Of a stretch of DNA of 64,000 nucleotides, positions 16,222 through 22,079 are shown in pieces. The notes beneath the pieces are model-generated. The model ran no database searches. It worked only from the letters and a program-made list of their open reading frames with translations, and was not told the origin of the DNA. Both the position numbers and the translations under genes were made by a program. How positions within the stretch are numbered: position 1 is the first letter of the stretch; each line of letters opens with the position of its first letter. Location of the stretch: positions 124,407 to 188,406 of the forward strand of contig NZ_MKIN01000024.1 in NCBI RefSeq assembly GCF_001938985.1. The letters are read 5' to 3'. This stretch comes from Gillisella taibaishanensis (GTDB lineage: Bacteria; Pseudomonadota; Alphaproteobacteria; Rhizobiales; Rhizobiaceae).

Positions 16222-17481
16222 TCAGAGCGTTGGCCGCACCAGAATGTGCTTCTTCTTGCCGAGCGACAGCTTGATCACGCCATCTGCGGTGACTTCACCA
16301 GTGCCAATCATGGCGCGTTCGTCGGACATGGGCTGATCATTGATCTTGACCGCACCGCCCTGCACATGGCGGCGGGCTTCGCCGTTGGAGGCGGCGAGGC
16401 CGGCCTTGACGATCAGGGCGAGCAGACCGATGCCGGCTTCAAGCTCTGCCTTGGCCACGTCGATGGATGGTAGGTTGTCGGCCAGCGCACCTTCCTCGAA
16501 GGTCTTGCGCGCCGTCTCGGCAGCGGCTTCCGCGTCCGTCCGTCCATGCAGGATGGCGGTGATTTCGGTTGCCAGGATCTTCTTTGCCTCGTTGATCTCA
16601 GAACCGCCAAGTGCCGCCAGCTTGGCGATCTCGTCCATCGGCAACGTCGTGTAGAGCTTCAGGAAGCGCTCGACATCGGCATCCTCAGTATTGCGCCAGT
16701 ACTGCCAGAAATCATAGGCCGAGAGCAGGTCGGCATTCAGCCAGACAGCGCCCGTGGCCGATTTGCCCATCTTGGCGCCAGAGGAGGTCGTCAGGAGCGG
16801 CGAGGTCAGGGCGTAGAGCTGCGGCGTGCCCATGCGGTGGCCGAGATCGATGCCGTTGATGATATTGCCCCACTGGTCGGAGCCACCCATCTGCAGGCGG
16901 CAGTCGTAGCGCTTGTTCAGCTCCACGAAGTCATAGGCCTGGAGAATCATGTAATTGAATTCCAGGAAGGACAGCGACTGCTCGCGGTCGAGACGCGTCT
17001 TGACGCTGTCGAAAGACAGCATGCGGTTGACCGAGAAATGGCGACCGACATCGCGCAGGAATTCGAGGTAGTTCAGCGAACGCAGCCATTCGGCATTGTT
17101 CAGCATCAATGCGCCGCCCTTCGGGCCGTTGTCGTAATCGAGGTAATGGGCGAAGGAACGCTTGATTGAGGCGATATTGTCCTCGATCTTGTCGACGGTC
17201 ATCAACTGGCGCGCCTCTTCCTTGAAGGAGGGGTCGCCGACCATGCCGGTGCCGCCGCCCATCAGCGAGATCGACTGGTGGCCGGTCTGCTGGAACCAGT
17301 GCAGCATCATGATCTGGATCAGCGAGCCGGCATGTAGGCTCGATGCCGTCGGATCAAAGCCGATATAGGCCGTCACGCTTTCCTTGGCGAGCAGATCATC
17401 GAGGCCGGTTTCATCGGAAATCTGGTGGATGAAACCCCGCTCGGACATGGTATGCAGGAAATCGGACTTGAACTTGGCCAT
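16222..17481 (-). CDS. tyrS: Tyrosyl-tRNA synthetase
   Basis: A 419-residue class I aminoacyl-tRNA synthetase. [14 protein letters not shown] contains the HIGH-equivalent site (about residue 45), G-G-S-D-Q-W-G binds tyrosine, K-M-G-K-S is the KMSKS loop (about 236), and a C-terminal S4 RNA-binding domain includes [13 protein letters not shown] 17481 is chosen over an upstream GTG at 17490. It is divergent from the anmK fusion gene. Confidence 0.96.
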
Positions 17482-17618
17482 GACGCACACGCCTTCTGGT
17501 ATCGGACTTTGAAATTCGTGGCGGCTTTACCATTGTTTTTGGAAAAGTGCACCCGGTGGGGCATGAATTTGGCCATGAATATCGTGCTTTCTGATCACCG
17601 AAGAGGGAATATCCGGCC

Positions 17619-19238
17619 ATGACCACCATTCGCACCGCAATCGGTTTGATGAGCGGCACGTCGATGGACGGAATCGATGTTGCATTGGTCAGGACCGACG
17701 GTGTGTCGCAGGTCGAGCGCGGGCCGTTCCTGGGCGTGGCCTATGATGATGATTTCCGCCGCCGGCTGCGCCAGGGGCTTGAAGACGCTAAGGCGATCAC
17801 CGAGCGAAGTGAGCGGCCGGGGAGCCTTGCGGAGCTGGAACGGGATTTGACGCTGCGCCATGCCGATGCCGTGCGGGCCTTTCTTGCGGCAAACGGGCTG
17901 CGGCCGCGCGATATCGATGTTATCGGCTTCCACGGCCAGACGGTGCTGCACCGGCCCGATCAGGCCCTGACCGTGCAGATTGGCGATGGCGCGGCTTTGG
18001 CCCGCGAAACCGGCATCGATGTGGTCTATGACATGCGCGCCAATGACATGGTGCATGGCGGGCAGGGCGCGCCGCTGGTGCCTGCCTATCATGCAGCGCT
18101 CGCCGCGGCCTTGGGGGCTGACAGCTTGCCGGCTTGCTTCGTCAATATTGGCGGCATTTCCAACCTTACCTATATCGGCACTGATGGCGAGGTCGCCGCT
18201 TTCGACAGCGGGCCGGGCAATACGTTGATCGATCAATGGGTGGAGGCGCAGGCCGGGCTTGCTTTCGATGCCGGTGGCGCCATAGCCAGCCGGGGCAGGG
18301 TGCTGAAGCCGCTTGCGGATCGCTATCTCGATCATCCCTTTTTCACCGCCAATGTCAGGCGCTCGCTGGATCGTAACGATTTTTCGCCGCCCCGGCAGGG
18401 TGAGGCGAGCCTGGAGGATGGTGCCCGCACACTGGCCCATGTTGCGGCCGCATCCATCTTTGCCTCGGCCCGGCACCTACCTGAAAAGCCGAAAACCTAC
18501 GTGATCTGCGGCGGCGGCCGGTTGAATGCCGTCATCATGGGCGACCTTGCGGCTCTGGCGGAGCGTGAAGGCGCCGCGATCGTCAATGCCGACGACCTCG
18601 CGCTCGACGGCGATGCCATGGAGGCGGAGGCCTGGGGGTATCTCGCGGTACGCTCGCTGAAAGGCCTACCCCTGACCTTTCCCGGCACAACGGGCGTCCA
18701 GATGTCGGTCTCCGGCGGTGTCAGGCGCATGCCCATCGTGCTGGAGACGGAGCGTCTGCTGCTGACACCCTGGCGGCCCGGCGATGAGGCCCTGGTCTCG
18801 GCCTTGCACGGAACACCGGAAACCAGCCGCTTCGTCAGCACACGCTTGCCCTGGAGCTCGGCCTATGCGGCTGAGCGGATTGAAGGCTGGATGGATGAGT
18901 ATGAAGCGGGCAGCCTTGGTAAGCTGAAGCTTGTGGCGCGGGAAGACGGCCGCTTCATCGGCCGTGCCGGCTTTTCCTGGTCTAAGGAGAGCGGGGCCTA
19001 TGAGCTTGGCTATTCAATTTGTCAGGCGGAGTGGGGCAAGGGCTTTGCCACCGAGATCGCCAAGGGATTGGCGGCCTGGTTTTTTGCCCGGGAACTCGGC
19101 GAGCGATTTGTCGCCTTCGCCCATGTCGACAATGCCGCCTCGCTTGCCGTGTTGCGCAAGGCCGGCTTTCGCGAGACGGAGCAGCGAGATTATAAGGGCG
19201 CACCCTTCCAATTCTTCGAATGCGACATCGCCGGCTGA
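17619..19238 (+). CDS. anmK: Anhydro-N-acetylmuramic acid kinase fused to a GNAT acetyltransferase
   Basis: A 539-residue frame. Residues 1-370 are a full AnmK, which phosphorylates anhydro-MurNAc during murein recycling: [35 protein letters not shown] and C-G-G-G-R-L-N. It ends with the usual S-G-G-V. Residues 371-539 are a complete RimJ-type GNAT domain opening [13 protein letters not shown], with the acetyl-CoA loop W-G-K-G-F-A-T-E. A Met codon sits exactly at the junction (18729), so a separate GNAT start there is also possible. AnmK is normally about 370 residues and alone. Loss of the stop between two adjacent genes is the simplest explanation. Confidence 0.85.
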
Positions 19239-19337
19239 TTTCTTGCCGCAATATGAACAGGGAAATCAGATTCCGTTCATGTGCCTTCGCTTATTCTCAC
19301 CTCATCGTTTCAGAGGAAACGTCTGAGGAGATTGAAG

Positions 19338-19601
19338 ATGAAAAAGTTTCTGGTCGCATGTCTGATCGGTATGGCAAGCATCACGGCGACGGCTGCCCCG
19401 TCTCTTGCGGACGATGTCAGGGTCATGGTCTATGACCGAGGCCACCATCCGGATCGCTACTATGGCCGCGACAATTACCGTCGCGATCACTACCGTGGTT
19501 TCGAGGGGCGCCGCCACTACCGCGAGCGTTGCCGCACCAAGCGCGTCCAGTACCGTCACCACGGCCGCTGGGTTAGCCGCACGACCACCGTCTGCCGCTA
19601 A
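19338..19601 (+). CDS. Small secreted Arg/His/Tyr-rich protein
   Basis: An 87-residue protein with a signal peptide (M-K-K-F-L-V-A-C-L-I-G..., likely cleaved after A-P-S-L-A). The mature part is very rich in Arg, His and Tyr (R-D-H-Y-R, R-R-H-Y-R-E-R) with two cysteines and a C-terminal R-T-T-T-V-C-R. ATG 19338 has GAGGAG upstream. Small periplasmic proteins of this kind are common in rhizobia, but I know no assigned function. The His richness could mean metal binding; that is speculation. Confidence 0.65.
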   Translation: MKKFLVACLIGMASITATAAPSLADDVRVMVYDRGHHPDRYYGRDNYRRDHYRGFEGRRHYRERCRTKRVQYRHHGRWVSRTTTVCR

Positions 19602-19800: not shown

Positions 19801-19827
19801 GAAGTATCAGCTATTCAGCTGGAAATA

Positions 19828-19902
19828 TGGCTCCCCGGGCCGGATTCGAACCGGCGACCTGTCGATTAACAGTCGAATGCTCTACCGCTGAGCTACCAGG
19901 GA
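19828..19902 (-). tRNA. tRNA-Asn (GTT)
   Basis: The minus strand folds into a full cloverleaf of 75 bases including an encoded CCA. The acceptor stem is TCCCTGG / CCGGGGA with one T-G wobble, the D arm is GCTCAGCGGTAGAGC, the anticodon loop is CTGTTAA with anticodon GTT, and the T arm contains GGTTCGAATCC. No direct repeat of its 3' end is seen nearby, so there is no sign that it served as an integration site here. Confidence 0.97.
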
Positions 19903-20077
19903 ATGTTCCGTTCGGCGCGGTGTGAACCGCTTCCGTTGGTGTGAGTGGGCTTCTACTCAGGCTTTCGTGGTTTGCCAAGTCCCTTTTTGAAAAAAATGCG
20001 CCTCTTGTTTTGTTTTCCCCTCTTTCCCATCTGGAAGGAAGGGGAAGACTGAGCTCTGGCCCATGAAAGGTGACGAT

Positions 20078-20386
20078 ATGTCCGATAGAAAAACCAAATT
20101 CTATCATATGGATAGCGAGAATGGACGTTTGCGCCTCGGCCGCGTTAACCTGCCTATCCCGCAATCGCGCGGTGGTCGCATCGCAACCGGCGGCCTTTTG
20201 GTTGCCGGCGGCTGTCTGGGATTTTTGCCAGTGCTGGGTTTCTGGATGGTGCCGCTCGGCTTGGTCGTGCTCTCCCATGACGTCAGCTCGGTGCGACGCT
20301 TTCGCCGCAGGGCAGGCGTCAAGATCGGACGAATGCAGAAAGACGGCTGGACGCTGCGCCGCAAGCCGGGCGCCGATGCACAGTGA
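20078..20386 (+). CDS. Small membrane protein of unknown function
   Basis: A 102-residue protein with one long or two short hydrophobic segments (about 37-65: G-G-L-L-V-A-G-G-C-L-G-F-L-P-V-L-G) followed by a basic R-R-F-R-R-R tail. It is reminiscent of the PGPGW-type small transmembrane family but lacks the exact motif. ATG 20078 has GAAAGG upstream; ATG 20063 is an alternative. It is convergent with the sensor kinase. Confidence 0.65.
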   Translation: MSDRKTKFYHMDSENGRLRLGRVNLPIPQSRGGRIATGGLLVAGGCLGFLPVLGFWMVPLGLVVLSHDVSSVRRFRRRAGVKIGRMQKDGWTLRRKPGADAQ

Positions 20387-20423
20387 CGATGGATTATTTG
20401 CTTACCGGGCTCACGCCTGCAGC

Positions 20424-21971
20424 TCAGGCGAAATAGCGCCTCTTCGGCTCCACAGCCTGCGTACCTTCGACGGCCGGCAGGGTTTGCAGCACGCGCTTGG
20501 CCGGCAGGATGGCGATGACTTCAGTGCCTTCGCGCAGCTTCGACTTCAGCTTGAATTCGCCGCCATGCTTGGCGAGAATCGCCTGCACGATCGGAAGACC
20601 GAGCCCGGTGCCCTGTTCGGCGCTCTTGATGGCGATCGAGCCTTGCCCGAAAGCCGAAAGCACCACCGGGATTTCCTCCTCGGCGATGCCTGGACCATTG
20701 TCCTTGATCGATACGTATTGCCCGCCACCGACCGTCCATCCGACCTTGACGAGGATCTCTCCCCCAGGCGGTGTGAATTTCACCGCATTGGACAGAAGGT
20801 TCAGCACCACTTGCCGCAGCGCCTTTTCATCGGCCCACAGGGCGGGCAGGCTGGTTTCGGATTGCTGGCTGATGGCGATATCCTTGGCCTTGGCGCGCAA
20901 CTGCACCATGCCGACGCAATCGTCGGTGACCTCAAGCAAGGAGACCGACTCTTCGGAAAGATCGTATTTGCCAGCTTCGATTCGCGAGAGATCCAGAATT
21001 TCGTTGATCAGGTTCAGCAGATGCTGGCCGGAACGGTGGATGTCTCCGGAATATTCCTTGTAGAGCGGATTGTTGAGCGGCCCGAGCACTTCATGGGCCA
21101 TCACTTCGGAAAAGCCGAGGATCGCGTTGAGCGGTGTGCGCAACTCATGCGACATAGACGCCAGAAAGCGGGATTTGGCCATATTGGCTTCTTCCGCACG
21201 TCGCCGAGCTTCGTCCGACATGGACTTGGCAACTTCCAGTTCGGCGATCAGGTCATCCTTTTCGCTCTGATAGGAAATGAGTTTCAGGTTGGAGAGATAG
21301 AGCCGGCCGGTGATATAGATGAAAAACAGCACCGCAGCCGTGAAGGCCAGCGCAAACCCGAGCTCTTCGACCCGCTGCGACAGGATTGCCTGCGCCGACA
21401 GCGTCAGAATAACCGGCGTGAAGGCGGAGAGCACCGCCTGGCGCAGCAGAATATTGGTCATCGCCGTCGTGCACAGCACTACCAGCAGCACCGCGCCCTT
21501 GAGCAGCAGCGTATTCGTGGGACCACAGGCGTCGCAGGCCTCTATCCCAAAGGCAGCCCAGCAGCAGCCCATAGCGATGTGGCCAGCCAGCAGCGCGTGG
21601 CGCCAGCGCTCCTGACGGCTGGAGGTGGGAATGCGTTTAGCGGCCTTGCGAATCAGCAGGATGTTCATCGCATGAACGCTGAGCGTCAGCAGCGCCCAGA
21701 AGATGTAAAGCGGGTTGCCCGAGAGATAGGCGGACAGTCCGGCGCTGATGATCGTGATGAAGGGCGTTATGGCGGCGCCGTGCAGGCTCGCCTGCGCATG
21801 CATGACCAGAAGTTCTTTTTCGAAGGCAGGGGTGCCGCCATGGGAGGAATGCAGGCGTTCTCTGGTCGTGCGCACGGCTTTCGCCGCCGCATGGCTGCGG
21901 TGGCCACGCGAGAGGTCGACAACATTCTTGTCGGCAGAGTTTGAGACGCCGTTACCCATGATCGGTTGCAT
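20424..21971 (-). CDS. Membrane sensor histidine kinase (PleC/PdhS-like)
   Basis: A 515-residue kinase with several N-terminal membrane helices (about 70-255), a linker coiled coil (E-A-R-R-R-A-E-E-A-N-M-A-K-S-R-F) and an H-box S-H-E-L-R-T-P-L-N-A-I-L-G-F-S-E. The HATPase domain follows, with N-L-L-S-N-A-V-K-F-T, D-N-G-P-G-I and G-T-G-L-G-L-P. The H-box and linker are of the PleC/DivJ/PdhS type, which in rhizobia feeds the DivK-CtrA cell-cycle pathway; the specific member cannot be decided here. No response regulator is adjacent. The start is uncertain: ATG 21971 has a weak GGA, GTG 22001 and ATG 21959 are alternatives. Confidence 0.82.
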   Translation of the reverse strand: MQPIMGNGVSNSADKNVVDLSRGHRSHAAAKAVRTTRERLHSSHGGTPAFEKELLVMHAQASLHGAAITPFITIISAGLSAYLSGNPLYIFWALLTLSVHAMNILLIRKAAKRIPTSSRQERWRHALLAGHIAMGCCWAAFGIEACDACGPTNTLLLKGAVLLVVLCTTAMTNILLRQAVLSAFTPVILTLSAQAILSQRVEELGFALAFTAAVLFFIYITGRLYLSNLKLISYQSEKDDLIAELEVAKSMSDEARRRAEEANMAKSRFLASMSHELRTPLNAILGFSEVMAHEVLGPLNNPLYKEYSGDIHRSGQHLLNLINEILDLSRIEAGKYDLSEESVSLLEVTDDCVGMVQLRAKAKDIAISQQSETSLPALWADEKALRQVVLNLLSNAVKFTPPGGEILVKVGWTVGGGQYVSIKDNGPGIAEEEIPVVLSAFGQGSIAIKSAEQGTGLGLPIVQAILAKHGGEFKLKSKLREGTEVIAILPAKRVLQTLPAVEGTQAVEPKRRYFA

Positions 21972-22079
21972 TTTTTCCGCGGTCCGTCTCAGACTAGCCA
22001 CGAAGTCTTAAGAGTTACTTTCCGGAAAGGTTTTATTTGCCATTCTCGGATACCGGCTGTTATCGAAAAGGGCCAGATT

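Follow-up and report, generated by a model that had tools for sequence, protein, structure and literature searches.

We wondered whether the AnmK kinase and the GNAT acetyltransferase that share one reading frame in Gillisella taibaishanensis form a genuine two-enzyme fusion, how such a fusion might have arisen and what its acetyltransferase might do. The window, that is the whole stretch of DNA that we analyzed, comprises 64,000 nucleotides, and the gene in question occupies positions 17619-19238 on the plus strand as a single uninterrupted ATG-to-TGA frame, stop included, encoding 539 amino acids. In profile searches, residues 7-367 (17637-18719, +) were recognized as an AnmK kinase domain: PF03702 matched over the whole domain with 282 bits (curated cut-off 24) and NCBIfam NF007141 with 577 bits (cut-off 352). 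Residues 379-518 (18753-19172, +) matched the RimJ/RimL-like GNAT family Acetyltransf_3 (PF13302) with 95 bits against a cut-off of 25.4. As both profiles score far above their curated cut-offs within one frame, the description given in an earlier note on this DNA, an AnmK fused to a complete GNAT domain, proved to be correct.

The predicted structure agrees with this two-domain layout. An AlphaFold2 model of the whole chain reached a pLDDT of 93.1 and a pTM of 0.91, with 2 of the 539 residues below 70 and no segment below 50, and the join is ordered in the model, without a flexible linker. Solved AnmK enzymes were the top structural matches of the chain, and for its C-terminal part PA3944-like GNATs. 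The kinase half resembles known AnmK enzymes (PF03702; Pseudomonas aeruginosa 3qbx and 8cp9; Agrobacterium tumefaciens Atu1827) over the entire kinase domain and in its aligned motifs, and it shares 32-34% identity with the solved AnmK chains in the Foldseek list. Unlike these enzymes, it is joined without a linker to a C-terminal GNAT. Alignment with P. aeruginosa AnmK (3qbw) revealed the conserved Asp of the FD(C/S)GPGN motif as well as the GTS-DG motif, which here reads GTSMDG. The residue concerned, Asp196 (18204-18206, +), is aligned to the Asp in the 3qbw motif FDCGPGN, which we take to be the catalytic Asp182. Because the aligned Asp and GTSMDG are both present, the kinase half should carry out the ordinary AnmK reaction.

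The predicted fold of the GNAT domain (pLDDT 92.4) is closest to that of PA3944 (7kyj) among solved structures (VIA-align Z 22.7, rmsd 2.0 over 168 residues), and the nearest solved relatives found with Foldseek and VIA-align also include bleomycin acetyltransferase and RimL. It is like RimJ/RimL-like GNATs such as PA3944 in its fold over the whole domain and in the motif WGKG (residues 472-475; 19032-19043, +), presumably the acetyl-CoA loop, but its identity to PA3944 is 23%, it has a signature of its own and it is fused to, or encoded after, anmK. That signature consists of an invariant P-W, R, K and GRAG in an alignment of 23 rows, in which the Trp and the second Gly of WGKG are likewise invariant (23/23) and the first Gly is kept in at least 90%. 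Glu462 aligns with Glu102 of PA3944. As the acetyl-CoA loop and this Glu are kept, the GNAT half is probably active as an acetyltransferase. Five of the 23 rows, all from the Peteryoungia group (L099-L102 and L104), have Gln in place of the Glu, and because of this exchange the activity of the GNAT may have changed in that group. In one of the five, L104, the acetyl-CoA loop also reads WDQG and not WGKG.

Relatives might carry either the fused gene or separate anmK and GNAT genes, an alternative raised by the earlier note, and both forms were found. Of the 63 genomes of the genus, 19 encode the fusion in one frame, this one included, the 18 others having the same uninterrupted architecture at 62-82% identity. 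Two genomes of another genus (g85; loci L064 and L077) encode it as well, whereas anmK and the GNAT gene are separate neighbors in Rhizobium and some other Rhizobiaceae genera. Twelve of the 19 fused genomes correspond to named records: Agrobacterium vitis (4), Rhizobium oryziradicis, Allorhizobium terrae, A. sonneratiae, R. wuzhouense, a Rhizobium MAG, R. rosettiformans, Peteryoungia aggregata and A. albertimagni. The fused form thus occurs in the clade of the window (Allorhizobium / Agrobacterium vitis), in a clade of Peteryoungia, R. rosettiformans and R. wuzhouense, and in one further genus. Because the same uninterrupted architecture recurs in 18 other genomes of the genus and two of another one, sequencing error is excluded on the strength of these comparisons, as is chance, and the fusion is an inherited trait. 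Most of the remaining genomes of the genus encode AnmK without the GNAT, as a rule in an open frame of about 380-430 codons, and one, G250, has anmK and GNAT as separate neighbors. AnmK without GNAT was found at 59 of the 124 distinct loci fetched, a sample that is not random.

In a class-wide sample, 260 of 337 genomes had a match to the fusion protein; among the matches listed, with at most four candidates scored per genome, none besides the window's own passes query residue 429. At 16 loci from other families of the order that gave the strongest GNAT matches (L267-L275 and L277-L283), no AnmK match lay within about 1.5 kb. The fusion joins two known families in an arrangement that none of the titles and abstract beginnings listed by our searches of the open-licence literature mentions.

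We then considered the join itself (18714-18755, +), which begins with the conserved GG of AnmK and stops short of the GNAT's first conserved Arg. The distance from GG to Arg is 11 codons (33 nt) in all 21 distinct fused genes, the length for L104 being taken from its printed codons. As the lone AnmK of relatives stops 4 to 23 residues past the conserved GGV/GGI, the AnmK part of the fusion ends at about residue 368-372, essentially without a linker. The Met codon that the earlier note had placed at the join is there: codon 371 is ATG (18729-18731). Internal initiation at 18729, a further suggestion of that note, could still occur in this strain but did not emerge as a conserved feature, since only 6 of the 21 distinct fused proteins have Met at this position, the remaining 15 having Ile, Val, Pro, Arg, Lys, Gly or Gln. 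With Met in so few of them, Met371 is, on this comparison, not an ancestral start retained by the clade.

An ATG exactly at the join would be in keeping with a sequencing or assembly error, or with a recent loss of the stop in this strain, and with two proteins produced via internal initiation at Met371. We find this hardly credible, given that the same frame is open in 18 other genomes of the genus, that Met is found at the join in so few fused proteins and that in 42 of the 44 distinct pairs of separate neighbors anmK and the GNAT gene are read in different frames. The last figure also speaks against the earlier note's suggestion that a stop codon was simply lost: because nearly all separate pairs are out of frame with each other, a frame-changing indel was needed. 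One of the two same-frame pairs (L006/L276, genome G128) has a GNAT gene that is split over two frames behind anmK and looks broken.

In 39 of the 44 distinct separate pairs, the stop of anmK and the start of the GNAT gene overlap by 4 nt (37 ATGA, 2 GTGA). The distance from GG to Arg was measured in 29 of the 44 (14 had no anchor motif and one gave no Arg) and amounts to 44-50 nt in 28 of these, 47 nt in 23 of them, and to 74 nt in L105. We infer that the separate pair represents the older state, because the linked loci whose AnmK diverges most (L067 and L076, 60% identity) have it, in trees that are unrooted. If so, the simplest route would be a single event with a net loss of about 14 nt, in which the overlapping anmK stop and GNAT start were removed. 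The locus would then be a clear case of an overlapping stop/start pair turning into a fused enzyme, even if the guess at the substrate that is discussed below fails.

Both halves of the protein are under purifying selection as judged from substitution rates. Within four groups, which hold 17 of the 21 fused genes, the AnmK half gave pairwise dN/dS values of about 0.10-0.12 and the GNAT half values of about 0.09-0.21, with synonymous sites close to saturation in some pairs. The identical join speaks for a single fusion event. For the GNAT halves, one clade of all fused forms was not rejected (p-AU 0.673) in a quick, unrooted tree of 83 rows that included 42 of the 44 separate pairs and 20 unlinked GNATs. 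A quick, unrooted AnmK tree was made from 98 of the 124 distinct loci, with 18 hand-picked separate pairs of the 44. The fused forms from the clade of the window, 13 in number, were compatible with one clade in it (p-AU 0.859), and one clade of all fused forms was strongly rejected (p-AU 5.6e-35), the AnmK halves of fused forms being scattered across the tree. Because of this rejection, the history cannot be simple descent of the whole gene.

The scatter of the AnmK halves is what one would see if the coupled pair had been fused several times independently. We regard repeated fusion as rather improbable, as it would have to arrive at a join of identical length in 21 of 21 genes, and as one clade of the GNAT halves is not rejected. 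In addition, a comparison of four Peteryoungia-group genes gave a lower dS for the GNAT than for the AnmK half, both in each of the 6 pairs and in 1000 of 1000 bootstraps of the mean, a pattern that recombination of the 3' part would produce. In some Peteryoungia-group pairs the tyrS protein is nearly identical and anmK is not. We favor one fusion, after which the 3' part would have spread by descent and recombination, with clean loss in some lineages. Some lone anmK genes are nested among fused ones, and behind lone anmK no remnant of a GNAT gene was found at any of the 59 distinct loci, neither in an unfiltered search of the coding strand, where the weakest profile match had an E value of 2.2, nor with filters on both strands. 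The fused or separate GNATs that served as controls were all detected (65 of 65). As no remnant was found, the losses, if losses they were, were clean. That the architecture and this origin are right and that both enzymes work within a single chain, taken as a joint claim, has in our estimate a probability of about 0.6.

What might the acetyltransferase do? The surroundings of the gene are conserved. The divergent neighbor tyrS (tyrosyl-tRNA synthetase, named by eye; 16222-17490, -) marks the locus, a tyrS match adjoining anmK in 22 of 22 anmK loci examined. Many of these 22 loci also have a conserved hydrolase gene downstream on the opposite strand, and the block of divergent tyrS, anmK, GNAT and converging hydrolase is spread over Rhizobiaceae genera. 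A patatin-like gene intervenes before the hydrolase in the Peteryoungia group and in L105. The hydrolase gene is absent from the 64-kb window and from 4 kb around the locus in the close relatives L093, L095, L097 and L098. Directly 3' of the fusion, the window encodes a small, secreted-looking protein rich in His and Arg (19281-19601, +), where some relatives have the hydrolase or the patatin-like gene.

The GNAT also occurs on its own. At 12 loci of the family without a local anmK (L066, L068-L075, L078, L079 and L082), it lies beside tyrS with anmK missing from the site in eight (L070-L075, L078 and L079) and beside the hydrolase in three more. Of those eight genomes, four were also searched with the fusion (G051, G147, G081 and G161), and the best match in each is only a weaker one (E 1e-65 to 1e-74). 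In another family of the order (f6), it adjoins an ispH-like gene at the six loci examined (L267-L269, L272, L274 and L275), with a 4-nt overlap in L267, and an rnhA-like gene is nearby. In family f41, related GNATs lie near miaA-like genes (L278 and L280; ispH, rnhA and miaA all named by eye). As the GNAT is kept beside tyrS or an ispH-like gene without anmK, it does not need an adjacent anmK.

These data bear in both directions on the idea, raised by the earlier note, that the fusion could link an acetyltransferase with murein recycling. Conservation of the neighborhood and the fusion itself point towards such coupling; the persistence of the GNAT where anmK is gone, and the lack of a kinship-corrected link to the deacetylase MdaA described below, point the other way. 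The GNAT might instead have a job unrelated to murein recycling, acting on the N-terminal amine of proteins or peptides or on a toxic amine, and might have been fused through adjacency, the fusion being tolerated and not functional. Its retention beside tyrS after loss of anmK, its relatives beside or near ispH-, rnhA- and miaA-like genes, the frequency of AnmK without GNAT in our non-random sample and the nature of its nearest solved relatives (PA3944, bleomycin acetyltransferase and RimL) all suit this explanation. It fits less well with the translational coupling of most linked pairs (39 of 44) and with the retention of the fusion, under constraint on both halves, by 19 of the 63 genomes in the genus. 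We consider an unrelated job a serious possibility, at somewhat less than even odds.

In the reading that we favor, the protein is made as a single chain in the cytoplasm; its N-terminal half opens and phosphorylates 1,6-anhydro-MurNAc like an ordinary AnmK, yielding MurNAc-6-phosphate, and its C-terminal half is an active acetyl-CoA N-acetyltransferase. Our preferred guess is that this half acts on a free amino group, either that of de-N-acetylated anhydromuramic acid or that of MurN-6-phosphate, a guess with weak support that is probably wrong. A parallel is GlmA of Clostridium acetobutylicum, a glucosamine N-acetyltransferase of the GNAT type for which re-acetylation of amino sugars during wall recycling has been proposed. 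GlmA is not known to occur fused to AnmK. In A. tumefaciens, MurNAc is recycled by AnmK and then MupP, AmgK and MurU (PMC9790009). A report on the same species describes deacetylated anhydromuropeptides made with MdaA, an anhMurNAc N-deacetylase, and its authors suggest that A. tumefaciens may preferentially recycle normal and not de-N-acetylated anhydromuropeptides (PMC10838918). The main text of that report nowhere mentions an acetyltransferase, reacetylation or AnmK.

The work on MdaA leaves the question of how de-N-acetylated anhydromuropeptides get reused. For a re-acetylating enzyme, the GNAT is a concrete candidate, being coupled to anmK in Rhizobium and part of the same protein as AnmK in Allorhizobium and A. 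vitis. MdaA (PMC10838918) would produce the substrate that the guess needs; it is a different enzyme and is unlinked to the fusion locus. On this proposal, MdaA would deacetylate the anhydro-MurNAc ends of chains, the imported deacetylated sugar could not become UDP-MurNAc unaided, and re-acetylation would make such wall-deacetylated sugars fit for reuse as UDP-MurNAc. In its full form, in which the fusion supplies the re-acetylation step that is missing from the wall recycling of polar-growing rhizobia and restores the acetyl group stripped by MdaA while phosphorylating the sugar, one active site handing over to the other, we hold the proposal to be decidedly doubtful. In favor of the guess, a search of the window's genome for MurQ (TIGR00274), which would mark another route for MurNAc-6-phosphate, gave nothing above the cut-off of 302 bits, the best match scoring 28.3. 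Among 14 control genomes, 12 gave matches, five of them over the cut-off.

The genome of the window does encode an MdaA-like polysaccharide deacetylase (L174; G000:C27:460331-461239) with the Asp-to-Cys motif TLDACMG. Such genes were named MdaA-like by this motif, present in 56 of 57 loci, and not by comparison with the sequence of Atu0900, and neither dapA nor ada was recognized by eye beside them in the eight loci inspected. An MdaA-like match was found in 30 of the 63 genomes of the genus. Among the 60 used for the association (G232, G235 and G247, which have no usable anmK, were left out), 15 of 20 GNAT-positive and 15 of 40 GNAT-negative genomes had an MdaA-like gene, a difference that is uncorrected for kinship (Fisher p 0.013). 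On independent pairs, co-occurrence gave no signal (median p 1), the five pairs being too few to reach 0.05.

In the sample of the family, where 21 genomes have a GNAT match with E <1e-30, 13 of these 21 had an MdaA-like match, against 141 of 394 overall. One of nine f6 genomes with a strong GNAT match had one, and two of the 18 genomes queried from f6 and f41 together, one of the two (G505) having only a weak GNAT match. The five fused genomes without an MdaA-like match (G199, G200, G216, G223 and G237, the last of which is 76% complete) all belong to the Peteryoungia group, in which the Glu to Gln exchange is found. L099, the locus of G259, has the Gln, yet an MdaA-like gene is present in that genome, so that the two features do not fully coincide.

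Elsewhere in the window, tRNA-Asn (gtt; 19828-19902, -) is the sole tRNA found. As it lies under the listed ORF 19811-20278 (-), that ORF is at least partly not a gene. Opposite an ORF that by eye resembles a histidine kinase (20424-22001, -) runs a 624-codon open frame (20070-21944, +), probably a by-product of codon use.
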